DNA from: Tachypleus tridentatus
Taxonomy: Eukaryota; Arthropoda; Merostomata; Xiphosura; Limulidae
Direction of reading: 5' to 3'
Assembly: GCF_004210375.1 (NCBI RefSeq)
Contig: NW_027467782.1
Coordinates: 37,871,771-37,935,770 of the forward strand
DNA: 64,000 nucleotides
Made by a program: the position numbers and the translations under genes. The notes beneath the pieces are model-generated. The model made no database searches. It saw only the letters and a program-made list of their open reading frames with translations, and was not told where the DNA came from. This document shows, one piece after another, positions 4,786 through 50,200 of the stretch (position 1 is its first letter; each line of letters opens with the position of its first letter).

Positions 4786-5239
4786 AAGACTAACCTAGGT
4801 AGTTAAGGTAGTGTTTTGTAAAATATAATCACATTTCAGTTACATTATGTATGTATGTATATTATTACTATTTTCAAATTAATTTTTAAATTTCAGTCAT
4901 TATTCATAAAACAGAAAACTATGTGAACAAATATAGAAAATAATTATCTTTGCTACCTACAAATGTTAAGGTTTATACTTGCTTGGCATAAACTGTAAAC
5001 ATTGTTAAATTTGGCACGAGAAAAATATAAAACAAAATAATCTTTTTAAATTTTATATATGCATTTTGAAATGACAAAAAAATATATAAATTATTATGTA
5101 AATGCCATAGAATTTCACTGCAATGTATCAAGGCTACCAACTAAGCAGCATTTGGGTCTAAAAAATACATCCAATCTCCATTTTGTCTATATTTAAAAAA
5201 GGTGGTTCTTTAGTACTTAAGCCTTGCAAAGGCTGAGAA

Positions 5240-6285: not shown

Positions 6286-6461
6286 CTTTTCTTTTCTGAT
6301 TTCTCTAATGTAGTCATAACTCGGTCATAATACTTGGCTAAATGGAAGTGACCTTCTTCCCATTCAGGCTGAATGGCAACCACATCTCGGTACATTAGAA
6401 TAAGGGCATTACTCTCCAAGACAGCCGATTCTTCACTATATTTGGCAAGCATTAATGTTGC
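6286..6461 (-). CDS. ATR: ATR exon W17 (last exon in window)
   Basis: A 176-bp exon from AG at 6462-6463 to GTGTGT at 6285. It reads L-E-S-N-A-L-I-L-M-Y-R-D-V, then PEWEEGHFHLAKYYDRVM, against human PEWEDGHFYLAKYYDKLM, near the end of the FAT domain. It leaves in phase 2. I found no following exon in the remaining 6.2 kb, so the next one (human G-D-L-I-R-Y-I-V-L-H-F-G) should lie beyond the left edge. The frame is open throughout. Confidence 0.95.
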
Positions 6462-9400
6462 CTAATAAAGATAACAGAAAGTGGTATTACAATAAATGAA
6501 CTTAATTATCTTAAATTATTTCATATGCTCTATATTATTCATGTGGTCCTAAGCAAAATTTATACAGAGATGGAACTACCACAGTATTCAGATTTGAATT
6601 TATTCAAAACACCCAATCTACATTATGATTTTATATCTACACACTAATAACCCAGATGGAAGGAGAAGATACCAATAGTTTAGGGTGATGGAATAATATT
6701 TTACATTATTTGATCAGACTGAAGCTTCAAATTTTACAGTTGAATAAACTATTAAAACTCTGGAGAATTTAACAGTGTAACAAAGGCAGTATATATTTCA
6801 CAAAAATATTAGATATTTTGAAATGAGAATGGAAAACTTCAGCTTTCTTAAATCATAACTTACCATTAGAAAAGTTCAAAATGAAGCACTTATTATGTAT
6901 TTTTGCTTTTGTTAAAATACCCAAAAAAGAAATACCATTGTTAACTCTCTCAACATGGGCTTGGTTGACTTGACTGACCACAAGACCTCTTTGCACTCAC
7001 TTCTACTCTTTTTATATTTAATACTTCTAACTTTCAATAGAGTGTATCTGTCCTCACAAAATTTGGCATACTTTCAGTTAACATTCCAAGTCATTCACAT
7101 ACAAATATCATATCTTTAGTGAAGAATTAAAAAAATACAATGGAGATTTTTTCACAAATTTATTGAGCATTTACTTTGAATAGTCCACAGGCAAAGTAAT
7201 TTTCATATTAAAATAAAAAAAAATACTTTTTTGTCACCTCAAGAATCTCAAATTTCCTTTGTGTAGTCCCTATAATCTCGTAAATAATACATTTCAAACA
7301 ATTTTTGTTCCAGTAAAAGTTTATAGTTCATGTTATATTCTTTACCTTATCTCAAAATAAAATCAGTCAATTTTAGATACCTTGTAAGCACCAGAAAAAA
7401 ACAACCAAAAAAGTACCCATCTTTTCTTTCTAGAATGACTTAAATTGTAACATAAACCTACATTCTTTTATCCCAAGTAGTTTTAAGCTCATAGCAGAAT
7501 AAACCTACTTATAACTAAACCACTATCCCACCATTATGAGATGTTAATCACCTGGGAAACATGCAGCTCACATTACATTAATGAATTACATTACTTGTGA
7601 GTTGCTTGCTCATGAAAAAAATATTACTTATTTTGTCTGAACTAAACTACACTAAAAGGATACTTATTTTTACACTTTAGTTACTTTTATAAATATACAT
7701 AAAAAAATATACATGAAAAATAAAATGCTTAACCATTTTCATTTTTTTCTTGCTATTGACTATTAAAGAGACTTCATCCTAATTATGCTAGACTCCTAAT
7801 AGTAATGCATTTAATAATTTGTATTTAATTAAATAATGCACCAAACAATATAGATTTCTCAAAATTTTCCCTGGCTTTCCGGCTATGTGACAAAAGTCGT
7901 TACAAATTCATTCAACGTAGTTGTTAACTTTCTTGTAAGAACGACGTTTGTACTCCGAGTGACATCAACATTTCAGAACATTGTACAATATGCCATTTGA
8001 TACATAAAAAACCTTGACTTTCTATTGATCATAGGTAACATATCATTAAACATAGAGAGAACAACTGATGAACTGTGAAAGGCATGATGTGACAGGAAGG
8101 GTCTGATTTTCTCTTTGATAGCTCTGTAACCAAACAGAATTGAAGGCTATAAAAAAATCTGGTTTGTCTGAGTCATGATGAGTGTATAGAGAGAAATTTA
8201 CTTTGAATTTTTTACTTTTCTGAATAGTGGTTGATAAAATATGAAAGATGACATGCTAGAAGAAAAGGTGTTTGAACAGAAGAAATACATGATTTTAAAT
8301 ATTGTAGAATTTAAAACTTATACACTATTAAAATATGCATTATTAGCTATGCGATTGTAATTAGTATAACACAAACACAAAGTAGTTTAATAAACTTCTG
8401 AATGTAAGACACTTAAACTTTGTATCTTATACATTAAAGAATAACACACAATATTAAAATAGATAAACAATCAATCACATTTTAAATTCAGGCCAACCTA
8501 CAGCCTATAAAATGTTGACTCTATTTGGTTGGGGCCAATTGAAAGTGTGAGAGTTGGCAGGCCATAACATTTCTTTCTATAAAATAAACAAAAAAGAGTC
8601 CTTTATATTTTCTACCAACTATAAAACTAATCAAATTTCTATTAAATTGTGATATAGAAACTCTTAAATTTAATAACAGATGAAAAATAATTCATCAGAT
8701 AAAAAACAAAAACTATCAAATTTAAGCACTATAATTTCATGTCATGAGCTGTATAGTGAGTTGGTGAACCAAATCTGACCTGCAGGCCACATGTTGTATA
8801 CTCTGTTCTACATGTTTAATATTTTCTACATTATCATCAGCAAAAAGTACCTAAGTAATGTAACATAAGTGTTAAAACTTCTGTATAAGTAGCATCCATT
8901 ATTACCTTGGCACAAGCAGCAGTTTCTTTCTGTGTTTTGAGCTGGGTTATTCTTGAACTGAGAAACATCTGGAAAATGTTCCTGAATTCCTTTCTGAAGA
9001 ATATTGATAGCTTGTTCCTGTTCATTCTGTATAACAAGTCACAAAATAAGCATACAGGTAACCAGAGTACTAGCTGGCTATTAAAATTTTAGAAACATGA
9101 CAAGTTTGCATATCATATAACTTTTGGTGTATCATCCTATTTAACTGATATCAATATCTACTGAAAACTTAAAAACATTTAAAACCTCAATTTTTATATA
9201 CATATCAATTTTGACATAGTTTTAAAATAATATTGATTTACTACTGATTCACATGTATGTTTCTACAAATATCTTGTACAACATCCGTTTTGAAGATTCT
9301 TTACTTGATAACACTGTATTATCAACCCTTCTGTTTCATTTAATTTTAATATCACCAGAGGAAGGGTGTTCAGGCTATTTATCATTTTTTGTGGTATAAA

Positions 9401-15400: not shown

Positions 15401-18400
15401 TTTCATCAAAAGTTTTACAAACAACTAAGAACAGTATCTGCTTTAATAATTACAAAAAATATTACCACTGAGATTTATATTTACTTTATTCCAGTGCCAC
15501 TTAGATTTTTCCACAAATGTCTCAGGTATGTTTAATACTGAAGCTTCTAGCAGACAACTATAAGCCCTCTGTTGATGACCACTTCTAAAAAACACAGGTT
15601 GAAAATACTATTCTGAAAATTAATGGACATGATTCATTGTACAGTTAATGGATTCTAATCATAATGTATGCAATATAATAATGCAATTAATTATTACATA
15701 ATTAATATAATTATGCAATTAATTATTACACAGATACTTCTTAGTTTTTAATAACAGTTAAATCTAATGATATAATTTAATTACAACTCATTCTTAAATA
15801 AATTCTTCACTTAGTGTATGGTACTAATTCTACAGTTATCAGATGAATTACTATCAAATATAATATTTATTCTAATGATTCAAATCTAGTACCAGTTCTG
15901 GACTTTAGCAGTGAACTTGAATACAAGCTATTAATATGCACAAGATTAGTTGATGAACACATGAAAGCTTCAAGCATGTCAAGAACTTGAAGTGGCTATA
16001 AAAATACACGAGTTAAAACAAAGAGCATTTATTATCATAAAAAAAACAAACCTAGATACAGCACTTACAGATTCCTGTACTAACAAACTTCCAAAACAAG
16101 CACTGAGAAACTAATGTCCCCATAAATTAAATCAATTATAGAAAGCATGGTGTCCTGAGACTCGTTGTTGAATGTTTATGCAAAGCTACACAAGAGCCAT
16201 CTGCACTAGCCTTCTCTAATTTTGAGTGATGAATTATATAGAAAGCAATTAGCCAATACCATTCACCACTAACCTTTGTCAGACTGAATAGTGGGACAGA
16301 CTGTCACAATATATAATGTTCCCACAGCTGAGAGGGCAAACATGTTCAGTAATGAGGTTCAATCCTGTAATCTGTAGATTACGAGCTGAAAAGCCTAATT
16401 ATCAAGTTTCAGATGTAATTTCTACATGACAGTTGCATGAAAGAGCCTTCTGTAATGGAGACTGTGCTGTCAGAATATTGTCAAGATGTACAATCGTTAG
16501 ACAGAGCACAACTATGTGGCAACATGAGCTGCAGTACTCCAACAAAATCATTGACTCATTCTCTGTGTTTGAATATTTTCAATAGGGGTATACAAGTTTA
16601 GATTGATTGATATCCTAGGTAGATTATGTATGATATCAGTAGTAACCAGATGTATACATTTATTCGTATTACCTTTTGTTATATGGGGTTCAAGTCCTAT
16701 TATTTTAGCATTACTCTAAGAAGAAAACTATATGTCAGAAATTTCTCTAAAAACACATATACAGGATATGTACACAATATTAAGTCAGAAAAGCATTTAG
16801 AAGCCAAAACAACTGTAATTAATTTGTATCAAATCACCTAACAGAGAGAGATCATATACAGCATCTTCTGTGGATTCCAATATGCTGTAGAAACATCAAG
16901 ACTAAAAAACACTAGAATTCAGAAATATAAGAGATACACAGTAACTGGTAAAAGTAATCTATTATGAAAGCCCACCATGCCACAGAATAATTCCACCTTA
17001 AAGTTCAGAAAACTGCTAGTGGGGTAATTGTCAAATTATCAATACAATATCATTTTCATATTCAAACCCAGTTCTGCACAAGAACCATATCAATCCACAC
17101 ACACACAAAATGTTATCCTCATCACCTCTTATGCCAGACTTACAGTCCCCTGAAACATGTATGTTGTATTTATTCACTTATGTACAGAAAATGTGAGATA
17201 GAAGAACATAATCAAATATCTATCAGATCAACTGAAACAAGCTTTAGTTTCATTACATCCATCAGTAGGCCTCCATATTTCTGTAAAGTTTGAGGTCTGT
17301 ACCCTCACGATTTTGGACATTTTGCTACTCTGGTATCAAGCTAATCCCTAAAAATTAAGCAACTTCAAAAATAATCTATTCTAAACAAAGTTCAATGGTT
17401 CTTACAATATTCTGAGTAATGGCACACATTTAAATCTCCATTATCATACTGTTGACAAAAAGAGAAATAAAAGCAATGCCAGATGGTGAACAAAATTATT
17501 TTTGAAACAGTATGATTTGGTTTGTAATGTCCTCTTTTGTTTGATCATTCCTGTATAAAACTTATGGACCTTATCTATGAAGATAGAATCATTTTAAATA
17601 TGAAGTTTTCTTTCAAAACTTATAACTGGGTTACAAATAATACATGTCTTTTAACTTGACATAATTTTAGGCTAAAGTGACAATGCATAATTAAAATATA
17701 TATGTAAAACGGCTGGTATGGGCAGAGAAAAACTCTATGTAGCAGGTTTTCTCACCATCATGGATCATAAATTATTTCTTTAACATTTTACTATGTGACA
17801 CTAACAACAGAATCAAAAAGTCAGATTTTGATGAGAAATACTCCCCCAACTTAACTCAGTAAACTGGATTACGAATTTGTTTTTTTTTAAATTGCATTTA
17901 GTTTAAATTTTCATCAGAAGCTTACAACCAAGGTGTGCAACTTGTATAAATTGTGAGACTAATATATAACTTTACTGTGATTATAAATTAAAATAATTTA
18001 ATAAACATGAATGATTCTGTTAATGTGAACAAAGTGTTAGAAGAAAATGATACCCCATAAACACATTATATAATATTCTCTCTGTGAGAATGTACATAAA
18101 AGCTCAATAATGTCTTACAAAGAATTAGAAATGAGTAATAACTTCTACATGCATGCACTGACAGGTTTAGGAACTTTTCAATGCGATATCTTCAGTATTA
18201 GTGGTGCAGGAAGGAGAGAAATAGGTGGAGTGCTTGACTAGACACGCAAAATTTACAACGAGGAATTTAAAGTATAAGAAGCTGCTAAAAGTGTTTCCCC
18301 CCTGCTGTCAAAGTCAGCTAAGTCTGTAAAGATTTAGGTCATGTCCTCACCAGAAAATTGATATAATAATTTACAGTTGCTATGCATGTAAAATATGTAA

Positions 18401-21400
18401 AAGTGGGGATGTTACAACACCTCCAGGTCTGATGCTTCTGAAATACTCCATACACATTTCAGAGAAATGTATGTTACTATATGATATTAATGAAAGAATA
18501 GATCAGATTAATAATCGACTGAAAAGTTAAAGGAACAGTACAGATGAGGTGATTACAAGAATTTATTTGCAGTGTAATAAAACCTACTTTCTGGCAAGTT
18601 TTGCACTTTGTAACCAGCAAGTTACGATTTCGTAATCAATCTTTTTGGTCTGCTCAGGAATGTTGTTCTTGGCTATTGTAAGGAGAACCCGGTACAGATT
18701 AAGAAGAGGTTCCTGATAACGAAGTGAGGACTGTAAAACAAAGAAGTTTAAAAAAAAAACACTCATGAATACAAAATATTATTTCTAATTCAGGATCTCC
18801 TCTACTAAGTACTGTTTAAAGGGAAGTTATATACAATTAACAAATATTTATAATCATAAAATATAATTTATCTAAATTTTAGCCTTTAAAATAAAGAATT
18901 AAGTAAAAATAGACAAATATTATATGAAAACCAATGAAACAGTTGTTATAATTAAAATGGTATATCTTTAAGTTTGGGTCATGGTATTTCAGTAAATTTC
19001 ATTTCTATATTACTTTTAATTATTTCTAGAGAGACAAACAGAACTATAAGTGCCTGTTCAAGGTTAGATTAATAAAATTTTAATCTTTGTTTTAATGTAG
19101 ACTTTGATTATTAGTATACTAATTATTTTAAAACGTTTGTGTATATGATCATTAAATGATTCTTTATTATTTATATTGTATAATCTGCTTTAAACAATTT
19201 ATGTTTTTTAAACTCAGAAATGTGTTCTCGTACCTAAAAAATGTACAATATCAAAGATATAAATGTTGAAGTTCTTATCATTAGAGTAGCTGCTCCCGAT
19301 ATATAATGAGACACTTTTTTTTTAAAACAAGAATGATAAGTGCTTTCTATTTTTCTCTTCACATCTCATTTGGTATCTTTAAAGCTTTAAAGAAATAATC
19401 AGTAATGTATACAAACTATAAGTTAAATTATCAATATCATTAGATAAAAAAATCATTCCTAGCTTTTGAGACTGCAGTTTTTATATATTCTATTTGCAAT
19501 AAAAGTAAAACCTGAAACACATACTTGAACCAATTTTCTTCTTCCTCTCCACTCTTCTAAGAGTGGAGTTCAATCTACTGACTGAGGAGTAGCTTCCTTG
19601 AAATGAAGGGCAGAGACCTGTAAAAACTTAGACTGCTTTCTCCATATCTGTCAACATGTGTAGTCTGGAAGAAAAAACAAACACATACTCCCTAAAATCT
19701 TAACAAACTACATTTCAGTGTCTGACGAATACAGAAAAACTAGTATATATATATATATAAAAAAGTAAACTAACAAAAGAAAAACACAACTGAGATAGAG
19801 AATCATGTTAAATATCTTTCTAAACCATTTAAACATTTTTTAGCATGAAAAAGAAAACACAGCTGAAAGCAGCATAATAAAAAAACATACTTCTAATTCA
19901 CTGTTACTAAGATAAAAGAATAATATCTGATGATATGATGATACCCCCAAATATAATGTAACATTTCCATGCAACTAGACATGGAAACAATTACATGGAT
20001 GGCTGGTTGATTTGGTGTTCTAGCAACCAGGCTATGTGCACCAAACATCTGGTTAAAAGTTAAAAGTAAAGTAAAATTATTAAAATTCATTAAAGGAAAT
20101 TAAAATAAAACAAAACAAAGTTACATTTTGAATTAAAACACAAATAGCATTAAATCCAACTTTTACATCTAGTCTACAGCAGTAAGAAGAAAACTACAGT
20201 AATACAAGTTGTGAAGGACTTTTTATAGCATAATTATAATTATCATAACTTGCCAGAATGACCAACAGGTAGTTAAAAAGTAGCATTAGTCACCTGAAAT
20301 TGGTCTTTCCATTCCTGGTTTCAAGTTATTGGATGTTATGGCCATTTTCTAATTTTAGATTGAACTAGATGTACTTTGATCCTTAAAAGTGAATCACATC
20401 AAAAAAATGTCTAATATATAAAGTAAAAAAAAAAAACAAACTTAAATAGCATTAAAAAGATTAATAGACTTTAAACAACTAAAATCATTTCAAAGGTGGA
20501 CAATGTCACCATCGCCAATAACAATATCTAACAAATAAACCTTGGGACAAAACATGTTTAAAATGGTGCCATAATTAAGTCGTAATGACACCGAAACAGT
20601 AAAATGTGGCTTAATGTAACACACAATACATTGGTGCATCAGTCCCAGATAAAAGAAAACGATGAATTAAAAACTGTGACCAATGTGTAGTCTAGTTAGG
20701 ACAATTTCCTCTTTCCATTTCTGGTCCTTAAGAAAGCAAGATAGCCAAAGTCCAATAGCACGTTTTATTTAGAAAAGCTTGTTTTCACGTTGCTCACCCA
20801 AGTCGACTGCTAACTGGCATAGAGATGAGCCTTGAATACAGGACCATAGTCCACGTATGGAACAGAAACAGCAGTGATAGAGCCAGAGCAGACAGATTTA
20901 TCTGCAGTGTCACCAAGCTCGTTCCTGCAAATACCAATGTGGCCCAGTATCTAGAAACACTGGACAGAAGTAGATGTTAAAGAGAAATGGGCCAGTCGAT
21001 TTTGAATATCAGTAAGAACTAAGATGAAACAATTCAAGGACCAGTAGAGAACTAAGCGAATCAGTATAAATTGTACAATTTTAGTACTGCTTAGCTTCTG
21101 TGTGATACAGGACAAGAGAAATGACATACAGTTCAGCAGTGAACACAGAAACTGTAGAGAGGATTCTCTGCACAACCACCAAACCATGGCTGAGCCCACA
21201 GAGTCACCTGATTTTGAACCATCTGTATAAATAGGAATGGAAGGGTGGTTTGAAAGATGTTCTGCAAATAACATACAGTATTTCAAATCAGGAGTGTCTG
21301 CTTTTCTCAGATGACTTAAAGAAAGGTTACATCTTGGGACTGTAATAGCCATGGTAGGATGAGCTGACCAGTGGATACAGCAAATGTTTCCAAGGATAGA

Positions 21401-24400: not shown

Positions 24401-27400
24401 TGAGAGCCATTGCAAGTGATGCAACAAGGGTCTGTTTCATACTCAGAGGCACCATAATCCTTGCCACTGCAACGAGCACATGTCAAGGAACCAAGACATG
24501 ATGTCTCCAGTGATCAAATGGCTGACACCGGAACTATCCGAGAGGGTTTGGAATGTATGGCCGTACCTTGCAGTTAAAATAACCTGCCTTGTTGGTAGTA
24601 GGTGGATGCTGTGATGTAAATGTTAAAATGAGGACATTGATCGGCATCAAAATTCCATCTTTGGGAGTGGAGATACACCTTACTGAAGAAACTCCTTGTG
24701 GTGGGAGAAACCAGTGGGAATCTCTGACTCAGGATGTTCTTCAAATCCCTATCAACAATAACTTCTTGTTACGAATTCAAAGTTGAATGAGGCATAACCT
24801 CAATAGGTATATTGCCTTGGAATGTAAGAGGAATTCACTGTGCTCGAGATGTGGATATTTCTACCAATATGTCACAAGAGCGAATCCTTCTGACCAACTT
24901 TGGAGAGCCAGTGAGACCTTCTGGTCCCTTCTGAATGAAAAAGGGAGACATTTGCCCTAAAGGTTTGTCTGAAAGAAAATGTAGTATAATAAAATAAGGT
25001 ACAGAAGTTACAAATGTTAAAGATTGCTGCTCAGAATCTTCAAGATGTTATTGTTTACTCATAAACTGTTTTTCACTATTTTGGTTAACTTTTTATTTGG
25101 ATGGTCAATAATAAAAAATGAATTTATCGGTGTCCACTGTCCCCACCCACCATAAAGCCCTATGAGTGGATGGCATTACAATGCCAAACAAGAACACTGG
25201 AGCAACACCAGGGTTTCATGAGCACTATACCCAAACACCAGCATCAGATACAATGTCCACAACACCTGCTGAGAACATCCAACACTGGTACTTGGTTAAC
25301 CCTAGGCCAAGTGAACCAGCCAACTGACCCAAGGGGAGCCACCCCAAGGCTGCCCATCTACAGGAATTCAAGGCCACAGTGGTATGTTAGGGTTGGACCC
25401 CTCAACCATCAGGATCTTCTCCTCCTCTTCATGGGTCACCATGCACAACACACATGTTGGTGGATCTTTAGATCACAAAAGAGGTAAACTAAAAGAACAG
25501 AACCTCCCTGGGAGGTCCCTCACCAATCACAGGAATCCAGAATGAGGGGAACAACTACCTGAAGAAATCCACAATGGTAAATATTATTCATCATGTAACT
25601 ACACATGAAAACAATTACTTCAAGATATCCACAATGATATGTGCCTTTCTCCTTGTAATTAGACATTATAACAATTACTTCAAAGATATCCACAATGATA
25701 TGTGCCTTTCTCCTTGTAATTAGACATTAAAACAATTACTTCAAAGATATCCACAATATGTACCATTCTCCATGTAATTAGACATTAAAACAATTACTTC
25801 AAAAATATCCACAATATGTACCATTCTCCATGTAAGTAGACATTAAAACAATTACTTCAAAGATATCCACAATGATATGTACCATTCTCCATGTAATTAG
25901 ACATTAAAACAATTACTTCAAAGATATCCACAATGATATGTACCATTCTCCATGTAATTAGACATTAAAACAATTACTTCAAAGATATCCACAATGATAT
26001 GTACCATTCTCCATGTAATTAGACATTAAAACAATTACTTCAAAGATATCCACAATGATATGTACCATTCTCCATGTAATTAGACATTAAAACAATTACT
26101 TCAAAGATATCCACAATGATATGTACCATTCTCCATGTAATTAGACATTAAAACAATTACTTCAAAGATATCCACAATGATATGTACCATTCTCCATGTA
26201 ATTAGACATTAAAACAATTACTTCAAAGATATCCACAATGATATGTACCATTCTCCATGTAATTAGACATTAAAACAATTACTTCAAAGATATCCACAAT
26301 GATAACCATTCTCCATATCCACAATGATATGTACCATTCTCCATGTAATTAGACATTAAAACAATAACTTCAAAGATATCCACAATGATATGTACCATTC
26401 TCCATGTAATTAGACATTAAAACAATTACTTCAAAGATATCCACAATGATATGTACCATTCTCCATGTAATTAGACATTAAAACAATTACTTCAAAGATA
26501 TCCACAATGATATGTATCATTCTCCATGTAATTAGACATTAAAACAATTACTTCAAAGATATCCACAATGATATGTACCATTCTCCATGTAACCTCAGAA
26601 CTTTTATATTTTTGCTTCTTCAGTTTATTTTGTGCCCATTACTTTAAGACTTTTGTCAATATGATTGTTAATCCTTTGTTAGTTACTTTCATTTAAACTC
26701 TTATTTCTTAATTCTGTAAGCATGAAATGCATCACTTTTCTTATAATGTGATAAAAACAGTTACGTGAGAACATTATATCTACCTTGGTACATACAATTT
26801 ATCTTGTAAATAGAAATAAAATTAATTGCAATCACTTGATACCATGGTGGAATCCACACTGGTATTAACTATTCCCTTGTAAGTAGATATAAAAAATTAC
26901 TGAAGAACATGATAACATGTATGGTGATTTATACTTTTATATAAATGGAGATTTAATATAATTACCTGAGAATGTGACTGTATCCACCATTTTCCATGGA
27001 GGCTGCTGATAAAGGTCCCATCTGCTGAGTTCTTACAATTTTACACTATGTGAGATAGTCAAGGGTGGAACAAAATTTACCACATCAATCCAAAAAGTAT
27101 TTTGAATATTTCCTAGAGACATGAATAATCTTTAAGTGACATGCCTCTTCACTTCTTCCAAATACATTTACATTACTAACATATAAAAAAAAATATATAT
27201 TGCACTTGAATGTTGGAAATACATCTTTGCTAATTAAAGCATTTATTTTCTTATTGAGATACAAAAGTTTATTTATACTATGATTATACTTTAAAACTCA
27301 GGAAGGAAACTAAGTTTTCTCAAGAACTTTGCTATAATGTTGTGTATGATTATAACCAATGGCAAAAATCAAAATTAATTGAAAATTTATGTTACAAGAT

Positions 27401-32257: not shown

Positions 32258-35200
32258 CAATAAACTAAAACACCCTGACAACAAACAAGGTAAACAGATG
32301 CAAATCTCTATGTCACCTGTTCCAAATAAATAGCTAGATTTAAAATAAAAGCCATAACTAGGATAAACAAATGCACATACTTATTTTAATCTGTTTCAAA
32401 TAAATAGCTAAATTTAAACTAAGAACTATTACTATGATACAGATACACATACTTATTTTCATCCCTTTCAAATAAATGACTAGATTTCAACTATATACAA
32501 CAACTACAATAAGTAGATGTACATAGTTCTTTAAGGGAGCCATTTTCTTTTCCCATGATGTAGATTTAGTTTGAATATTCATACAGTGTAGATAATATAT
32601 ATACATACATACAATAACAATTACAAAATATGATACTTTTGTTGATATTATATTTTCTTGACTAATAAGTAATAGCAAAAAAAAGACGATTTGTTTTAAA
32701 ATTACAAAATAGTTTTCCACTACAGTTTATGGAATCAATGAAATGGACAATCTTAGCTCAACTTTTACTATGTAAGAGAACTCATAATTTTTCAAACTGT
32801 GTGACTTAAAAAGGACATGAACTCAAGTGTTCTTGTTTTAATATATATTATTTATTATTTGAATGTTTACTCACACAATAATATTCCAAACATAACTCAT
32901 AAACAACTTGATATATCTTATATATGAGTTCTGATCAAAAGATTTCTTCTGTTACAGGTGCCAGTACAGAGGCAGTAAGCTTTACTGAGGTGTGTACAAA
33001 GTACAAATAGTGATCTACCTCACGGATAAACCACTTATCCAGACCTTATACCCGTGTTCAAAGACAGAAGCATCTCTTGCTTCTGTTGAAATATAAATGG
33101 ACAGAAAATAAAAGCAACATGTTTGCATCAAATTTTTTATGAAAAATGGTACAGTAGGAACAGAAATCATTGAAATGTTAAGAACTGCTTTTAATTATGA
33201 TTGCTTTAAAACTGTTGTTTATCAGTGGATAAAACACTTCCAAGATGTCCAGAAATCAGTCAAAGATGACGACCATTCTGGGCAATCACCGACATCAACT
33301 GATGAAATGGTTGCTAAGATGAAAGAAAATAGTCAAAGTCATCAAAGATTAACTATTCATGAAATTGCTGACAAACTGAACATTTCCTCTGCATTATGTC
33401 ATGTGATTTTAGCTGAAAAACTCTGCATGTGTCAAGTGTCTGCAAAATTTTTTCCAAGGCTGTTGATGGATGACCAAAAGTTTCACCATCAACAAGTGTG
33501 TGAGGATCTGAAAAGAAGGCTAGAAATTGATCCAAATTTCATCAACATCATTATTACTGGTTATTGAGTCATGGGTACACAGTTATGACCCTGAAACGAA
33601 ATTTCAGTCACCCCAGTGGAAATCTCCATCATCACCACTTCCAAAAAAACATGACAGTCTTGATCAAATGTAAAGACAATGTTGATCGTGTTTTTGATGT
33701 TCAAGGTATTGTTCATCATGAATGCCTGCCTAATGGCCAGACAGTTAACCAAGCATTTTATAAAAAGGTCCTAATTTGCTTGAAGGAAGAAATTAGAAGA
33801 AACTGCTGCGAGCTGTGGAAAATGATTATTGGTTTCTCTGTCACGACAATGCACCTTCACATAGTGCTGTATCTGTTCAAGAACGTTTGGCAGAAAGAAA
33901 CATTCCTGTGATACCACACCCCCTGTAATCTCCCAATCTTGCCACATGTGATTTTGTTCTGTTCCCAAAAATCAAAATTAAGTTGAAAGGAAGGTGATTT
34001 GATGACATTCCAACCATCCACAATTGTGTGAAAGCAGAACTTAGTCACACAAAAGTTGAAGGCTTTCGAAAATGGCAGGAACATCAGGACAAGTGTGTAT
34101 TAGCTGGGGGATTACTTTGAACGGGATATAATATAATACTGATGTATGTACATTGTTCTGTGCAATAAAAGTGAAGTCTTAGAACTTTTGACCATACATC
34201 ATATATTGCAAATAGTGGTCTCTGTTCAATCATTTGCCTGTCTCCAGTTTGAAAAGTTGCACAAAGAAACAAAACTCAACATTTACTTTTGAAATTACAG
34301 AAGAACAGACATGGATAATGTTGATGCCAAATTTTATTTCACAAACAGGATATTCTACATTAAATGTTAGAAAGTAATCATACTGTCATTCAAATTTCAA
34401 AATGTAACATAACTTAAAGAATAAAAATGTACATTTACCATATGTTATTGCTGAGCACCACTTAGGATGACTAAAATGCTCAACAATTACTTTTGCAGTG
34501 TGTGGTACAAATATGTTAGAGGCTTGACACTGAGTGAAACCAAGAGTGCAACACAATAAACATTTTCTTAAAGTCTACAATATAATTTAAATTGAAAGAT
34601 CCAATGGGTCATTTAGGTTGGGGCTAGAAGAGGCTCAGCCCTAGGGCTTATGGTCTTAATGGAGGCCCATTGTAGGACCCTCAAAGATTATTAGCCACTA
34701 TGCACATACAACCTTTAATCCATCACTGGAAAGATCAACATAAACGTTCTTATTATGTGAGATAAGTATGTTTGTTTGTTGTAAATAAGCTAACTTTAAA
34801 ATTTACTTTCTTAATTAGTAATTTTTACAACTACTAATTAAGAAACAAGGGCACTTGGCAAAAAAGTGTCATCCATAAGTTACTACATATTAAACTTGTT
34901 ATATAAATGACTATATATTAGTTATTAAAAGTTTCTCATACCTTTTCTTTAACAGAAAGAAGAATTTTTCCAACTGCAACTCCCCAGTTATCAGAAGAAA
35001 TCTGCTAAAAATTTGATAAATAAAAAACGGAGTTACAAAACTGTACTAAGGTACAGGTAACATGGAACAATTAGCAGGCAAAAATATACACATTCTTAGA
35101 ATGAACTTCATTTATTACCTTTTAACTGAAACTATATTGACTATTAAAATACACATAGCTGCACCAATTATTAATCTTTTGTATTTTCTCCCTTGTTTAT

Positions 35201-38200: not shown

Positions 38201-41200
38201 CTACTTGCTGCCAGACAGCCAGCTCTACAAGAAGGGTCATTGAACCTCCTGGTATTATTAGCAAGTGCTATTCTAAACAAATTTCTAATAAAAAAACAAA
38301 CAAGATTCACTGTTATTTATATTACAGTACTACATCTCTAGTGAAAAGACTTTCAGTGAAACCACGAATTTCCAGTGAAGTGGCAGTAATGAGTTTTTCA
38401 ATGTGTTGTATAAAACATTATTAATTGAAACTTTAATCAATAAAAGTTTGAATATAAAAATGACAAACTTTAATCATACTACTTGTAAAACAATGTTTTA
38501 TTCATTTCTGTAAATTGTACAAATTATAGTTTATTTTATCATGATGCAATTTTATTATACATGTTGCAGGCACAATAGTTTTTTAATTTTTTTTTCCATA
38601 ATAAGAGATAAATAAACACTCACTGTTTTAACAAATCAAACTGATGTCTCTTGGGACAGTTTCTTTAGATAAATGAGGACTTACGATGCTCTTCTGTATC
38701 AGAAGAACAATTAAACTAGTACAGAACTATGAATAAAGAAGACATTTATGTACAGAAGTATGAATAACGAAGACATTTATGTACAAAAGTATGAATAAAG
38801 AAGACATTTATGCACAAAAGTATGAATAAAGAAGACATTTATAAAGTATGAATAAAGAAGACATTTATGTGCAGAAGTATGAAAAGAAGACATTTATGTG
38901 CAGAAGTATGAATAAAGAAGACATTTATGTGCAGAAGTATGAATAAAGAAGACATTTATGCAGAAGTATGAATAAAGAAGACATTTATGTGCAGAAGTAT
39001 GAATAAAGAAGACATTTATGTGCAGAAGTATGAATAAAGAAGACATTTATGTGCAGAAGTATGAATAAAGAAGACATTTATGTGCAGAAGTATGAATAAA
39101 GAAGACATTTATGAAATAAAGAAGACATTTATGTACAGAAGTAAATAAATAAAGACATTTATGCACAGAAGTATAAATAAAGAAGACATTTATGCTCAAA
39201 CAGTTGTGCCAATGAATGTAGCTAACAAATCATCCTAGTCACTACATTAATTTAAAATTTGAAAATACTTTTGATCTTATCGTACTTACCGATTTTAGGA
39301 ACTCAGAAAGGCCGTCCCAGTCTGCTAACTTCCATGCTGATTCTACATGAAATGGATTTATCTCATTTGACCATTCTGGTCTATAAAAATAATGCAACAA
39401 AAAAAATTTATCTAAACTTTCACATTTTTCACCAGAAAATGTCGAAGTTTATATAGAGTTAGTGCTAGTACAAAGCATTATGAATATAAGAAAATAAATA
39501 TAATTAACAAATAAATCTTATTTCCTGTCAGGTGTAAAGCTAGACAAATTATAAAAAGAAGAAATACCCATGTTTAAGAAAGCAACTCTGTTTCCTGTTG
39601 GATGAAAATAACTTAAAAGTGTGCATAAAACAAACAAACACAAACCTCTCATTTACAAGACCAGTAGCATAGGTAAGTGCTGTGTTTGACTGATCTAAAC
39701 CCATCAAGCATCGAAGAAGACCCTGATGGTGACTAATTGTGTCTGGTTTAACTTTTACAGCTCTTTCATAACAGGAAAATGCATCTTGTAGTTGACCTAT
39801 CAAACATGATAACAGAATTTGAAATTCAGCAATTTGATCTTGATGAAACTTTGTAGAATTGATAGCTACTGCCTGTTGTGGAGACACAAGTGTAGAGGAC
39901 AACGTTTTGAAAGTCTTCTGCTTTTTGTCTTTAAGACTAAAGTCACATAACTCTTGATGCGATGGAAAATGAGTTAGAGAAGAGGGTATTACCTACTGAG
40001 CAAATGTCAATCCTCACACTATGATGCTTGTTCTGAAAAAGATAAACAGATCGCCAAAAGTATTACTTACTTGGCATGACACAAGATCTTAGTGTCTCAC
40101 AATCAAAATTTAATTAATTTGTTATAACAATTAGAATAGCATAAACAGCTCAGCTAATAATGCATATTATAACAGTATACAAGTTTTAAGTTCTTAATTC
40201 AAAAGGCAATATTTAAAAAAACAGGATTTGTCAAAAGAGACTTCATAAGCTGTAGCTAAAATTAGCATGTAAGCATATTTCTTTGATGGAATTAAAACAT
40301 TTCCATCATCTTTAAGTCCATCACCAATAATCCTCTTTAGATTACTTGTACCTACATCGCCAAAGCTCCCAATGTTCTGTAAGGCAACAACAGAAATAAA
40401 CTGTAAAACATTGCTTCACTGCTTTAGCAAAAATCAGTTTGTTTATTTTTAGAGCCAGTTTTCATGTGTAACTACCACAACTAAGCATTGCATAAAAGTA
40501 CTGCAACTTGAATGGCTTCAACAATAATGTTAATTAATTATTTCTTTCTATTGGCATTATCAAGATCTGAAATCAACTGTACCCCATTTTGCTTTTACAC
40601 TTTACTAGAGTTTTGAATGCTGACAAAGTATGTCCATCCACAGCAAACAGGTAAGCTGTTTAAGAAGTTTTCAATATGCCTCTTTAGCTTGTACACCCAG
40701 CGTTAAGTTATCTGAGGATGAAGAGAGATGCTGGAAGCAAAAAGATCATCATCAGTAATACCAGTGTTGTCATGAAGACTTCTCATCATCTTTGGACAAC
40801 TTTTTAAAACATTAAAAGCACAAGTGTATAATTGTATAAAGTTTATGTTGGATACAATGCAATAGAATAGATTAATAAAAATAGCATAGCTTGAATTAAT
40901 AAAATAAATGGATAGTATATCTGTGTAAAAGAAAATCATAGTGATTGAGAAAACAGAAATTCACCAAAAATAACTAGGTTATAGACTTACCAGTTTATAA
41001 AAAACAACAAAAATCAATTAGTGTGTGTGTGTGTGTGTATGTTTTCTTATAGCAAAGCCACATCTGGCTATCTGCTGAGTCTACCGAGGGGAATTGAACC
41101 CCTGATTTTAGCATTGTAAATCTATAAACTTACTGCTGTACCAACTGGGAACAAATCAATTAGTAGATAATACTACACACAGGATAAAATTTAATTATGT

Positions 41201-44200
41201 TTAAGTTAGTACTCAGTAAATAAAGACCACAAAATCAGTTCTCTAATTACCTTAGTATATGCTAATTTGAATTACTAACAAATAACCAAATTTAAAAGTT
41301 CACATATAACTCAAAAATCAGATAAAAACACATATATTAAACACATCATGACACACAAAAATCGATGTTTAGGTGTCTTTTTAAATAACGTATAATATGA
41401 AAATTTAAATATTAACATACAGTTTGATACCAAACTTAAGAAGATAAAGTTATAAAATAGTAGTTCAATAAAATTTTGAATGTAAGTTGACAAGTGCAAT
41501 GATGTGGCCTTTGACCCATGACCCATCTGGAAAGGGTTAACAGTTACATACATAAAGAAATATTTACTTTTACATACCAGTTGCTTCATGACCTAGAATC
41601 AAATCATGAAGTGTGAGGTCTTCTTGGCGAGATGCTGCTTCTCCTGCCACTCCATCTGGTTCATCAAGGAGAATGTACAGTTTCTAAGACAAAAAAATAT
41701 ATGCATACTGATCACAACTGAAAAAAGTAGTAGTAAAAAACAATGCATTCATCCTATATATATATAAAAACATTTTTTTCATTTGAATACTGAATATTCT
41801 TAGATTCCTTATTCTTATAAAGAGTGATTCTGAAGTTCATTAACAGGTAAGGAGAGGCACAGGATCAGAAATAAGGTACACTGAGTCTGCCCTGTGACAG
41901 TACCATTGAAATAATGGGAAATTTTGTTGATATGAACCAAATAACCAAATTATCAGGAGAAAAGGTGTAGACAATAAAAAATAAAAACATTTTAACATGA
42001 GTACTCTGAAAATATTCTTTGAGAGCTATAATTTTATGTATATGTGCATGTAAAGTTGTACTACAGAAGATGTAAGTCTGACAGTAGCAAAAGTTATAGC
42101 ACAAATCTGAGTTTGAGGTACAAGCCCAGAATTTTATTATACAATTAGCTCATTGAAAGATTGTAAGTATTAAACTTTACACAGTTTGGTTTCTATTCAT
42201 CTCATGAATATTGCAACTTCACATAACACACACTGCAGATTCACACTTAAAATCTGTTTCAATGCAAAATTACCAATATCTATTGTTTTCCTTAAACTAT
42301 TATTTTGTCATTTGAAATCAAACAGAATATTCTGGCATGTGATGTAATCTTAGTAGTATTAATATTTTATTATACAAAATTACAAGAGATATCATTTCAA
42401 AATTATTTACCTGCAAGAAAGCCAACTCTTCAGGAAGTCATAAACAGACTTATAGTTGGGATCATTATGTGGGTCCACAAGAGAAATAACAACTTTGTCA
42501 ATTCATGCATTAGCAAAAGCAAATCACAAAAAACGAAAAATACATTGTCTTTACATGTAAAACATTTATTATAGATTAAGGAAAGTTGGTGTATTCATTC
42601 TATGCATGAGCTTATGAATATACAAAACCACAACAGTCATCATGAGGTCTTAGTAATGGGTCACATCTCAATAACTGAGAATAATTCTATTCTGTTAACA
42701 ACAGAACCAAAACAGCCATCTTGAGGTCCTAGTAGCAGATTACATCTCAACAACTAAGAATCGTTTTTTATTCTGTCAAGAACAAAACCCATAAGACCTC
42801 CATTAGGTCACCAATAATTACAAACCATGTCTTATTATGTAAAGAATAGAATCACAAAAATTTCTGTCAGGTCCAAGAAAAACAGGTCACCTTGCAAAAA
42901 TGTGTAATTATGGGTTTTTATTTGTCAATAACAAAATCTTAACAGCATCCATCAAGTCAAAAGAAAATTGGTCACAGCACAATAATTTGGAATTTTATCT
43001 ATTATTTTAACAATAAAGTTCTAAACAGAAGTTGATATCAGTTACAAAACAGATGTTGAAAGCAGCAAAGTTTGAATGAACTATAATAGTACAGATTGTA
43101 CATGTAAACAACTTCAGATCTTTGAAGCTTATCAGAAAAACAATAAAAAACCACTAAAGATGAATCCCAAAATACTGATGTTGCAATAATTTGACTCTAC
43201 AATGAACTGAAGCATTTCATGGAGTATGTTGATATATATATAGAGCTAAAGGAGATGTGGCACAGAAACTGAAAAATTGCAAATGAATTCAACATTGAAA
43301 CTCTGCCATCATTTCTTAGCTGAATTTCTACTTTCAAGGGCAAGTTGGCAACACATTTTGGTGGTTTCCACAAGGTCATTTTATTATTAAACTGCAACTT
43401 ACTTTGCTTGTTTTGAGAAATCGAATATTTTGTAAATTCTGGTTTTATTTATACCATAACAATCATCACATTTGCTTCCTTTCAGGATGAAAGCTCCAAC
43501 ACATCATTCTATAGTTTCTCCACTTTAAACCAAAATCTGCAAAATTGTCAGCTTATCAGTTGTTTCAAATGAGACTGCTGACATATCTTGTTTCTGTCAA
43601 ATGCAGTCAAAGTTTTCATCCGTGAATCAAGTTGAAGACACAATATACAATACAAGTACATAAGCCACATACAGAGACAAATTTCTCTTCATTATCAATG
43701 TAGTTCTAAAGTTTACAGGTTACATATTTTTAGAAGTTACATACAAATATCAATGAATAAGGTGTAACAGAGAGTTTATACATGCTACTTCATTTTATAT
43801 ATGAAGGATAGCTTTTGCTAGAGACAGATCAGGAAAAAATTATGATAACTAGCAGTCATTTAGCCCTTTTGCTACAGACTCAGTATAATATACAAGTTCA
43901 TCTACACATTTGCACACATTAAGTATTTGTACTATAACTTTTGATACAGCACATGTACCTTCACAAAATCTGGTAGACATTAGTACAGATTTAAGTATTT
44001 TTTATCCAAAAATCAGATGTTTCATGAACTATTTTTATAAAAGATCTGTTTGTGAAAATTGAGTCTGTTTCATTACTAGTATGAGTGCAAAGTGATTTCA
44101 TGTTATGAGTTAAAAAACTGTTCTTCATCCCAAAAATCTCAAATATTATTTGCATAATCTCTAAAACTTCCTAAATATATTTCAGATGTTTGATTTCAGC

Positions 44201-47200
44201 GAAACTTTATACATTATGTTATTTTCTACACTCCAGGTGTGGGGTCTGTCACTTAACTAGCTTTGTAACTATCATTAAAAAATTAGGAAATAAATAATTT
44301 TATTTTTTTAGTGCTATGATGATGACATATTGTAACATGAAAATACAAATGTTTAGTTTAAGTAGACTAAGTCTCATAATGCTATATGTTACATATATAT
44401 TTATTATGTTACTGACCTTCCAGTCATGCCTAGCTAGCATTGTGCAACTTGCATTGATCTGGTGCTCTCATATTACATATCCAGTAACATAAAACTGACC
44501 TTTAGTCTTTTCTGTCTTAGCTGTGTTTTAGTGGACTAGTATTTTGTAATATACAGACACATTTAAATTATTATACATTATATATATGTATATACATTAT
44601 GACTATTTAGAAATAAATTATTAAACTTTTCTTAAAATATAGAAAAAAAAATGGGAAACGCAAACAATTATCTCTTCTCTCTACGATCTCTGTACTTGGT
44701 TGTTGCTGGACATAAGTTGCTGAGCCTTTTGAAATTTCAGAAGTGGAGGATATCAAACAATTTTTTTTTAGGTTTTATACATACAGTTGAATAACCAAAA
44801 AATCATAAGTAACTACACTGATACCATAGAATTCCACTTAGTAACTAGATTTATATCAATTTTAAAATATATGAAACTATGAGCAGACACAACTCCTTGA
44901 AAACTTAGATTGAAAGAACACTAGCTTTTTCAAAGATTAAAATAGCTAAAAAACCACTTTAGGAACATCTTAAGCTACTGATTGGTTTTTCACATGTCAT
45001 ATACTGTAGTAAGAGTATATAATGGACTGTTTCAAAAATTGGAAAGAGTTGAATAGAGCCCACTGTGTTAAAGACCTCATACCTTTTTTATTTTATATTC
45101 TAGCTTGTCAAAGTTAGTAATCTGAGTTCCTAATTTGTATGAAACTGTGAACTTAGTATTTTGACACCACAAACATCTAATTTTAAACTGTGCAGCATTA
45201 AACATAACATGTGACTCACTAAAATCAATATTTATGTTCTTTTAATACTTATTTTTAAACTAAGAAATTAACTCACACATAACATTAAATAGTAAAATTA
45301 TAATCTACAATTTGATTCCAAACTTACTGACATAAATTCATAAAATATTTGTTCAATACAATCTTGAATGCAAGTCAACAAACACAACAAGATGGCCTTT
45401 GATCCATGACCCATTGTAAAAGGATTAAACATTGTTAAGTCCTTAATACTGCATGAAAGTTAGACCACACAGTACTGAATATAATGCACCAGATTAGGTC
45501 ACAGTATAACTATACACTTGCTACATGGATGAAAAGGTCCTGTCACAAACTACAGCTCTTGAAAGAACATGATGACTTGCTTGTACATCTCTTGAATGTT
45601 AAAGACCTAAGTGACATACATAGGTTTGTGTACACACTACCATTTAAAATATTCAATTGCTCTTTATTAAACTATAAGTCAAACTCAGGGTTTAGATGGT
45701 AATGTATCAAAAATGGAAACTAATGCTTTCTTAAACTAAAAATGCACTTCCAATAATACTTACCTATGCAGACATTACAGCTATTTCATGATCTCTAAGG
45801 ATTCCATATTTTGCCCATCTAAGCACTGAAAATACTAACTTCAGTCTTTTATACCCAACTTAAATACCTTAGACAAGTTCTAACTAGCAAACTGCTCCAC
45901 AAACTTTAATGTGCCTTCTAACTAGGTACTGTATATAACCATCTCATCCTGACAACACAGTCACTTTTTCTGAGAAATACATTTGGTTTTAGTGGGAAGG
46001 TAGAACAGGAGAGTGTCAGTGAAGGTAAGTATTATCGAAAATACATGTTCAGTTAACTTTCGAAATATACCATCTACTGACACTAGAATCCCATGTTAAG
46101 AAGGTGGAGGGGCTGGTGCAGGCATGATCCATACAGAAAGTGTCTTCATAGAACAGGAGTATACCAAGAAAAGAATAGTACAAGAGTGGGAGAACTGAAC
46201 TACCTCCAGAACAGATATGCTCTTCACCTGAAACTTAATTTTTATATCCAAGGTGGAACAGAATACGAGTATTCATTCGTATAGGTTAGCCTCAACCAGG
46301 TAGACAAGGTTGGATTTAGGCAGTCATGAAACCTGTATCTCATGTTAGTGGTTAGGGTTATTGGACCACAATGTTTTGTGTGTGTATATAAATATATATG
46401 ACTGGATCTCAACCTGTAGCCAAAGAATGATGCTTTACACAATGAGAAAGTAACAACAACTAAGTGGACATACCTTCTCCTCTACCTAAAGGAATCTAAA
46501 AGGCAACACAACAGTTTTAGAAATACAGGCTAGACTAATAATGAAATTAATTTTTCTTAAAGAACACTGTAGAAAATTTGTTACCCAAAAGTTATTACCA
46601 CCACTAGCTTCTACAGATGAAAGTCTTGTAGTAAATTCAATTATTTTACATGAGAAAATATTCTGGTAACCCTGCTTCAAATTTTGAAATTATTACCCTA
46701 ATAAATCATTACTTATTTCCTAGCAAAGTGACATTTTTATGTTGTAAAAACATAATCAAGGCTGTTAATCAATGACTAGAACAGGCATTTTAATTGTTTT
46801 ATAATATTTACAGTCTTTAATTTCTCAAAGAAAAAAGAATATAAAATACCAGTAACTTAAGCTCATGATTAATTAATGAGTATTCCAACTACCTTTCCCT
46901 TTATTTGCAGGCTTGGAGTTATTCTGGTTACTAGATCTCAACATCACAAAATACTGATGACACCAAACCGTTAAACAATCCAATATTGAAAACACAGTCT
47001 GGGCACTCAAGTGGCAAAGGTCAGTCTTCTCATGAAACTTCAATTTGCTCTGTTCAGCTTGGTCAACATGGCTTAGAACAGCCATAATCTCTCTGTAGAT
47101 CTATAGACCCAAATACATAAAAAAGTTTTGCTTTTCTTTTTATAATAACACATATTAATTCTAAATTTTAGTGAGATTAAAATCTACCTTGATTATCAAT

Positions 47201-50200
47201 GTTAAAAAATTATTTTGCATTCCATTTTGCTTTTAAAAATTCTACTACTAAAATATGCAGCAAAATATTTCATAGATTCTTGTAATTTATAACATCTATG
47301 ATAACGCAAAAACTGCTGTGAACACATTATTCAGCTCACATTTTCAGTTCACTTTGGTATAAATCAGTCATCTTTACACCTCCACAATTCTGAGGATTTC
47401 ATCTTAATATGTAAGACAACCACCATGAACAACAAAGGCAGTACAGCACTGATGCTGTATACTCGAAATCAGAATGTTCATTAAGTTCTAAGGCATCAGT
47501 AATCACTCCATTAAAACAAATACCTTCAGGGCATTTTCAGTATTCTGAATTATTTCATAGGATGTGATGAAGCTCACAAGAGTATCTCATGCATGAACAA
47601 TGGATATGAAGACTGGTGACACACTTCACTCAATCCCCTCTTTTGAAGACGATGTACTGATTACTTCTACACAGTTAGAATGAAAATCATAATTCATTAT
47701 GTGACAGAACACAGGATAATAGAATTTAAGGCATTAGTAGTCCAATCAGAAGATCGTAAAACAAAGTCTACCAATGTTCATTACTGTCGACACCAACTTG
47801 AATCACCATCATATGTACAATGTCTCCGTATGAATATGGTATTTAACCTGACTCTCAGATACTCATCAAATAAGCACATAGCTGTTATGTGGTAGCAGGG
47901 TGAGACATAGCTCACTTGTAAAATTACTATTCTTATATTGTTGGTCCACTTGGTATGTTCTTGGCACAATAAGAAGCAAGTCATTTCCTGCTATATGTGA
48001 GCATAATGCACCTTAGTAGGTGTGTGAAATACAAGCTATCCTCGTATAGTCTCTATTTTAGCAGTCTGTATACTTACAGTGCCAAAGTAAAAACTACAGA
48101 CATTTGACACAGTCTAAGAGCAAGTTTAACCAACCAAACAGAGCTTTAGACACCTGACTCAACCTAGATGCAGTTTTTTCAAACTCATCTGCCTGTGCAT
48201 CATTTACTATTGCAGTAACACTGTAGTCTTACACTGCACAGCATTCAAAAAACAAACAATGTTGTCTTATATAATTATATAAATCAAAATCACTGTTCAA
48301 CTGGTATTTTAATGCTATAACATTTGGTGTAACATGCAAAAGTGGATTATAGTTTATTTTAACATTCATGTTTTTCATATTACATTATATTTGTTGAAAG
48401 CTATGACAAGACTTCAGTGCACATAAGCTAAGTAAACATGTACGGTAAATAAAAACAAATTATTCTAATAATTCAAACTATTTCTTCTTGAATGTTACTG
48501 TTAAGTTTATAGCACTCATAAGATACACATAAATAATTTAATATCTATTAAAAAAAACATTATTAGATATAAATTCATGCTGTCCAAGAATACTCTTAGC
48601 AAAAATATTGTTAATTAGACTGACAAAAGTAACGTTGATCTCAATTTCAAAGATCTGACCATAGGTCACTCATACATTTTTGACAGTTTTATCTTTGTTT
48701 CTGGCAGTGACAGTTGTAACTGGCAAAATAAACTGTCAAAAGAAATAATGTTACTTTCAATCAAGTTGAAATTGACTAGATATGTAAGATGGAACTAGGA
48801 TTTGTAATCAACAATAAGAAAGAAAGAAAATTTTTTGATAAAAGGAAGTACTTTTAATATTATTTTGAAAATAGTTTCTCACAATAGAATTCACATCCTG
48901 AAAAACGACTGAAAGACTAAAGTTAAGTAAAATGTTCCAAAAGTCAGAATACCTTTGGCTGACTGATGGATAATTAACCAATTCAGAATCTTTTCTATTT
49001 ACTGTAAACATCAAAGCAGATGTACTGGTACTGGTATTTTCTTTCTGTTCCCTGCTTTCTTACCCCTTAAAACATTTTATTACCAGATCTAAACAAAATT
49101 AATGATTGGCCAATCTGATAAGAGAAGATGCAGAAGTCTGTCAAATGGCTATCAATGCTAAGCTCTGTCTTTAAAATCTCACAGCCTATCAGTTGTATTA
49201 CATTCTTTACTTCTGAAAAAAGAAAATGTCATATAAAGAATTATGTACATTTACTTCTATACTTTATATTATTTCTTAAAACAAACATCTTCCTTTTCTT
49301 CATTGCTTGCATCTTGTAAAACATTAACCATGATGTGAGGAAGAAGAAAAACTGCTGTCTTCACATCGTTTTTGTCAATCATGAAGCATGACTGAAAAAC
49401 TCTAGCTGTATTCTCTCGCTTTATCTGAGAAATTAAATACACAAAACTATATAAATTTTATAAAACTAAGGGCATTTAAAAACATGCTAATGAGCATGGA
49501 AAAGTTAGTTTTAAATTGAAATGATTTTGGTTGTTTTTCTCTATGGCATAATCTGTTCTCAAAAAGCAGTTTTATAAAAAACTATTCTGCATTATTTCTT
49601 TTCTTTCCATTAAAAACAGAAAATTAACATATACAAAGACAAAATGAGAGAATTTTAAGTGTAATGTGGTGATTATAATCTAGTACTTGTCTTTGATACT
49701 ACAGTAGTCTACCCCCCCAAAAGAAATTCTAAAAGTGTATACCACCTTTATGTTCTAAACATATTTGTAGAGTAAGTTTCAATAATGTGCTCCTAATGGG
49801 CTAAAACTGTGACAAATGTCGCAGAACTGTGTGCACGTTACTTAATAGTTGAAATTAACATTCTCCTGAATTAGAAAAGGAAATGAAACTCAGACTTACA
49901 AGAACTGTGTGAACAGATATGTTTAGCTGAACTGTGAGGTGCCTCTGTTTCAGTAATACTTTTATCTACACAGTCTGATCTCTAGTTCAAATTTTGTCAT
50001 GGTTTTAATTAATATAATAATCACCTATAACAATAATATTGATTAGCAACCTAATTATCTCATTTCTTTTATCACAGAAAAGTGCTTCTTACCTTCTGGA
50101 GAAGACAAGATGCCCAATTACAGGCCCAATCTTTAAAAGTGCTTCCTAGTTTGCTCCCATATATTGGGCATGGAAAGGAAGTCCTCTTGTTACTAGACAT

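Follow-up and report, generated by a model that had tools for sequence, protein, structure and literature searches.

The DNA analysed here, a window of 64,000 nucleotides from the horseshoe crab Tachypleus tridentatus, very probably holds an unprocessed pseudogene of ATR, which on sequence evidence would belong to a young, dispersed family of segmental duplications whose founder was already broken. ATR is an essential kinase of the DNA damage checkpoint and is usually encoded by a single-copy gene. In the window, one of its exons (W13) carries an in-frame stop codon and lacks 5 nt, and both lesions recur in every other copy of this exon that was read in the genome except the one on a second contig, C3, which is undamaged.

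The ATR Copy in the Window

The window lies at positions 37871771-37935770 of contig C19 (69,812,617 bp) in an assembly of 2.17 Gb and 205 contigs (G000), in which C3 measures 119,009,709 bp. Sixteen ATR exons were mapped on the minus strand from 63696 down to 6286 (57 kb), every one of them bordered by AG and GT (Table 1). Three PDB sequences with the name ATR match a typed stitch of their translations (E ~5e-103), as do the Pfam families UME (6.5e-10), M-HEAT_ATR (7.8e-10) and FAT (1.1e-22), which bears out the identification of the gene in an earlier note made from the letters of the window. The UME, M-HEAT and FAT regions of a functional ATR are hence represented in the stitch; the kinase and FATC domains are missing from the copy, and its open reading frame is interrupted in W13 and W16. 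A search of the 206 kb downstream of W17 brought no kinase exon to light, the T. tridentatus protein P0009 has no match beyond its residue 225 in C19:37671771-37975770, and in the 200 kb downstream the only ATR exons found were the window's own. The lack of a kinase exon there and the lesions of W13 agree with the proposal of the earlier note that this copy cannot encode a full kinase.

Table 1. Features of the ATR copy in window coordinates, with remarks on their comparison with C3 and with NCBI protein models.
Feature	Position	Strand	Remarks
UME-domain exon	63539..63696	minus	
Exon B	56317..56452	minus	
Intron stretch	54722..54842	minus	matches final residues of P0040, in two frames
Exon D	50497..50645	minus	
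Exon E	50093..50207	minus	
Exon F	49287..49424	minus	
Exon G (M-HEAT)	46893..47100	minus	phase 1 at its end, against phase 0 at the start of H, the next exon found
Exon H	41578..41683	minus	
Exon I	39646..39796	minus	
Exon J	39290..39380	minus	
Exon K	34942..35004	minus	
Exon W12	26966..27045	minus	4 residues shorter than the same stretch in P0179; 5' part unmatched to P0179
Exon W13	19525..19664	minus	140 nt (C3: 145 nt); 7/140 substitutions vs C3
In-frame TAA in W13	19628..19630	minus	CAA in C3; common to all 18 non-C3 copies compared, window included
TGA in W13	19570..19572	minus	out of frame, likewise out of frame in C3; no lesion
5-nt shortfall site in W13	19565..19568	minus	TCC before ACTC, C3 ATTGATAA before ACTC; common to the same 18 copies
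Exon W14	18588..18730	minus	4/143 substitutions vs C3
Exon W15	15485..15584	minus	0/100 substitutions vs C3
Exon W16	8906..9026	minus	one base more than C3 near 8930-8937, a second frameshift; 3/120 substitutions vs C3
Exon W17	6286..6461	minus	0/176 substitutions vs C3; last ATR exon found in the window copy

The copy appears to lack the exons between the UME exon and exon B (about 166 residues) and those between G and H. For the former (residues 739-904 of P0040), the best match in the window has an E value of 0.68 and is misplaced; several NCBI models on C19 join UME straight to B, as the window would, and P0181, P0187 and P0189 retain some of the missing part. For the latter, the window yielded nothing convincing for scorpion residues 1545-1618; read by hand, a splice from G to H would give ETVHSP and then a stop, and P0181 terminates in ETVHPP. 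The intron stretch between B and D is probably not a true ATR exon; the corresponding sequence is taken by the NCBI model P0040 as its final exon. A stop inside exon K was considered and rejected, as the stop of the tblastn alignment falls past the donor site. P0179 is a different copy from that of the window, because the four W12 residues are present in P0179 and absent from the window. Further ATR exons lie in the 40 kb upstream of the window, one of them with an internal stop (ASPEA*MLLKV; L028, C19:37938996-37939199); the five C19 models that cover this point have a serine there, and P0186 (a cluster of 14 members) begins just after it.

The window has no Rfam match at gathering thresholds and no match in the plasmid collection. 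Minus-strand frames at 20800-24600 resemble decayed pieces of what we take to be a non-LTR retrotransposon, and a Pfam search of five intron reading frames returned a single match, to Exo_endo_phos (0.0007), which is below the cut-off. Tandem arrays with units of 31 bp and 38 bp occupy intron positions 38722-39113 and 50782-51339, and among the 4-kb bins of the window the GC skew is most extreme at 56001-60000 (-0.257).

Lesions of Exon W13

Mapping of exons and splice sites (acceptor ttcttccag, donor gtatgt) confirmed the position, strand and length that the earlier note had given for W13, as well as its reasoning that an exon between a W12 ending in phase 2 and a W14 starting in phase 0 must hold 3n+1 bases, which 140 nt does not satisfy, and that the 5' start and the 3' end of the exon read in different frames. 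The note had concluded that W13 carries a frameshift and a nonsense codon; both are indeed present, but each had been assigned to the wrong bases. Instead of one base too many, the exon is 5 nt short when aligned with the undamaged W13 of C3, and at approximately 19565-19568 the window has TCCA against ATTGATAAA in C3. The TGA that had been taken as the nonsense codon is no lesion, because it stands in the wrong frame and also occurs in the undamaged exon of C3. The bases that were thought to separate two frames, GTCTAAGTTTTTACAG, are coding and, in the proper frame, translate as V-stop-V-F-T with TAA as the stop codon; this frame runs on to ...SVSRLN and is broken there only. By the alignment with C3, the stop is due to a single base change and the frame break to the 5-nt shortfall.

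An intron of 16 nt in place of the separating bases was rejected: it is superfluous because the C3 exon reads through this piece, and its excision would keep the real frame break. P0009 starts within W13 and continues through the same bases. P0179 and P0180, two NCBI models annotated on a contig of 69,812,617 bp, terminate exactly at MEKAV, which is the W13 stop.

A Family of Copies Sharing Both Lesions

When searched against its own genome, P0009 gave at least 57 matches (56 of 217 candidates scored) and P0179 at least 79 (77 of 320 candidates scored); C3 holds seven of the 136 matches listed for the two proteins, and 129 places lie outside it. Grouped by contig and strand, the places outside C3 form, on C19, at least 33 clusters under a 100-kb rule and 47 under a 30-kb rule, spread over 3.41-45.35 Mb and both strands, together with at least 4-5 on C4, at least one on C9 and at least one on C10. 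All of these counts are lower bounds, a cluster does not equal a proved copy, and both copy number and concentration on C19 apply to the matches listed. Beyond residue 332 of P0009, only C3 is found among the matches listed. In separate protein searches, P0065, a partial protein of 1343 aa, is the only ATR protein of Limulus polyphemus among the matches listed (best 120 of 215 in one list).

For W13, 20 regions were fetched, namely 17 that adjoin listed W14 matches (C3 included) and three guessed places. The exon was found in 18 of them, two of the three guessed regions (L049 and L051) being without it, and 17 of these 18 (15 on C19, two on C4) carry both lesions, as does the window, the exception being C3. 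The search for a second ATR locus in the same genome that the earlier note had recommended has thus led to an undamaged W13 on C3 and to 17 other copies with the lesions of the window. Five further substitutions in W13 and one in its flank also separate C3 from all 18 copies. That the window might be a lone decayed copy was rejected on account of the shared lesions and of the dozens of places with ATR fragments.

Decay is layered, with further lesions in only some copies. W16 was found in seven of eight fetched regions (L067 lacks it); the extra base occurs at the same place in two of the seven (C19 at 33.23 and 38.60 Mb) and is lacking in five. The span from W14 to W17 is about 12.2 kb or 7.4 kb depending on the copy, and the ends of the copies differ, since the window copy stops at 4809 and, in other copies, W17 is followed by a next exon after about 3 kb. 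A search of the genome with the FAT family gave at least seven matches, on C6 and C10, and none on C19 or C3 among the matches listed, so that absence cannot be proved from such listings. Four ATR proteins compared by tblastn with the seven FAT-family loci on C6 and C10 found nothing.

The C3 Locus

On C3, the C-terminal half of ATR occupies 67839195-67887400 on the minus strand and the UME exon C3:67977858-67978064 on the plus strand; the NCBI models at this locus are P0040 and P0009, and the middle exons are in neither. The opposed halves could reflect misassembly, a large insertion or a true inversion, and what is claimed here for C3 is limited to an undamaged W13 and does not extend to a whole ATR. 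The alignment of the window with C3 ends downstream at window 4809 (C3:67872622). Upstream of W13, homology ends at window 26650 (C3 about 67895160), just after an intron array with a 61-bp unit that is common to both (window 25562-26592; L058, C3:67893400-67895600), and exons W12, I and J were not found in three C3 pieces beyond or around this break. One breakpoint has been located, at window 4809, and repeats lie past the C3 side of another. A stretch about 80% identical to the retrotransposon-like sequence at window 20800-24600 adjoins the homology break on C3.

Divergence and Age

Exons W13 to W17 differ from C3 by 14/679 substitutions (2.06%) and two indel events, introns and flanks by 128/7273 substitutions (1.76%) and 26 indel events, and neither substitutions (Fisher, p = 0.54) nor indels (p = 1.0) distinguish the two classes. 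Taken over the five exons, divergence in exons therefore equals that in introns, the pattern of a sequence without constraint. It is patchy, however, as W15 and W17 have no change in 276 sites where about five are expected from the intron rate, which counts mildly against uniform neutral drift; constraint or gene conversion may have acted on these two exons.

The neutral rate given for four-fold sites in PMC7210998 is 1.37e-9 substitutions per site per year, at which an intron divergence of 1.76% would correspond to a split of the window from C3 about 6.4 Myr ago, an estimate that gene conversion could make too young. Over W13 and its flanks, the mean difference is 0.45% among the copies (at most 2.1%) and 4.25% between them and C3, hence their spread came after the split from C3. 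Pieces of the window are 94.5-98.4% identical to C3 over 0.5-3 kb, and the other copies were compared over 0.14-0.24 kb.

Origin of the Family and Alternative Explanations

The course of events that best fits these observations would begin with a single ATR segment that was duplicated away from its parent about 6 Myr ago and then gained the nonsense codon and the 5-nt loss of W13, after which the broken segment would have been copied many times, mostly within C19 and in a few cases onto C4, C9 and C10. Duplication at the DNA level is evident because introns are retained: the 16 exons keep their AG and GT and the introns align with those of C3, unlike in a processed pseudogene, where introns are absent. 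The lesions relative to an undamaged relative comprise the TAA and the 5-nt shortfall of W13 and the additional base of W16. Segmental duplications are defined as segments of >1 kb with >90% identity (PMC9132208), values that the window exceeds in comparison with C3, and the copies are interspersed. As both W13 lesions are shared, the founder was probably already broken when amplification began; another way for the lesions to spread could be gene conversion between copies. The copies would in all likelihood add no working ATR kinase.

The earlier note had considered a decaying duplicate that stems from the genome duplications of horseshoe crabs, of which the decaying duplicate stands and the origin does not. 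Three rounds of duplication are reported in PMC7210998 and PMC7815833 and are placed at 135-500 Ma in the former; the ATR family resembles the resulting paralogues in that it, too, duplicates a single-copy gene of this lineage, but it is far too young and too numerous. Introns that still align at 1.76% divergence do not fit an age of 135 Myr or more, and dozens of near-identical places are not a few ancient paralogues, so that the divergence refutes a paralogue of this age unless C3 recently converted the whole segment, and we regard this origin as extremely improbable. Errors of base calling or consensus, which the earlier note had named as the main alternative, may still account for the single W16 base, which lies in a short A-run, and the T-run after TCTAAG, just past the W13 stop, does vary in length among copies. 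For W13, however, they are refuted, as 18 places (17 besides the window) have the same nonsense codon and the same 5-nt difference along with further shared substitutions, and the chance that such errors explain the observations is practically negligible. Very unlikely, too, is a false multiplication of a single broken locus along C19 during assembly: the opposite orientation of the ATR halves on C3 does suggest a region that may be hard to assemble, but the copies differ in substitutions, W16, intron length and downstream reach, and are spread over four contigs and both strands.

Capture of the segment by a large transposable element, which would carry it as Helitrons carry gene fragments, would agree with the many dispersed, intron-bearing copies in both orientations and with the retrotransposon-like and tandem-repeat sequence within and beside the window copy; it is unlikely given that the ends of the copies differ. 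The copies might, on the other hand, be live, and their products, RNAs or truncated ATR-like proteins, would then act on ATR. NCBI annotates many ATR-like models on the C19-length contig (at least nine representatives), among them multi-isoform models such as P0186 and P0179 (eight cluster members), which may reflect transcription, splice sites are canonical in 16/16 exons, and W15 and W17 show 0/276 changes. These isoforms are predictions, however, and with neutral divergence overall, lesions that differ among copies and no kinase, we consider this distinctly improbable. A more elaborate version would have the broken ATR segment amplified in a recombination-poor or sex-limited region that makes up all or part of C19. 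Its transcripts (sense, antisense or those of truncated HEAT/FAT proteins) would act on the parent gene in a conflict of the Stellate kind, fought over the checkpoint for meiosis and DNA damage, and the rearranged C3 locus would belong to it. We consider this version very unlikely.

Comparison With Known Duplications and Significance

An unprocessed pseudogene in a young dispersed family is thus the reading that we prefer. Unprocessed pseudogenes that arise by segmental duplication have introns, disabling lesions, neutral divergence and a source exon elsewhere, and the ATR copies share all of these features; unlike typical cases, they form at least 39 clusters among the matches listed, and the W13 lesions are present in every copy read outside C3. 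A parallel may be drawn with SMG1, which we take to belong to the PIKK family, as ATR does, and of which partial pseudogene copies are presumably contained in the human lcr16 duplications. As with lcr16a and lcr16u, part of a large PIKK gene with many exons has been duplicated with its introns and at high identity, and the copies are interspersed mostly on one chromosome with few elsewhere. On human chromosome 16, the lcr16u repeat contains SMG1 and accompanies lcr16a, according to PMC9132208. The ATR copies differ in being those of a chelicerate, and for them a core duplicon, a co-duplicated gene or a breakpoint retrotransposon would be hypothetical. Segmental duplication like that of the human lcr16 repeats is favoured as the probable mode of spread, for which a core duplicon, a transposon or unequal exchange may have served as the vehicle.

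A description of the ATR-segment family was not found in the open-licence literature, and the term "ATR" has no occurrence in the main text of PMC7210998 or of PMC7815833. At least those ATR-like models of this genome that reach W13 would go back to a founder that was already broken, and to count them as an expansion of ATR would be a mistake. The family would represent a young and datable amplification of a gene segment, chiefly on a single chromosome, in a lineage where duplicates are commonly attributed to whole-genome duplication. It prompts the question of whether recombination is scarce on C19 or the contig is limited to one sex.
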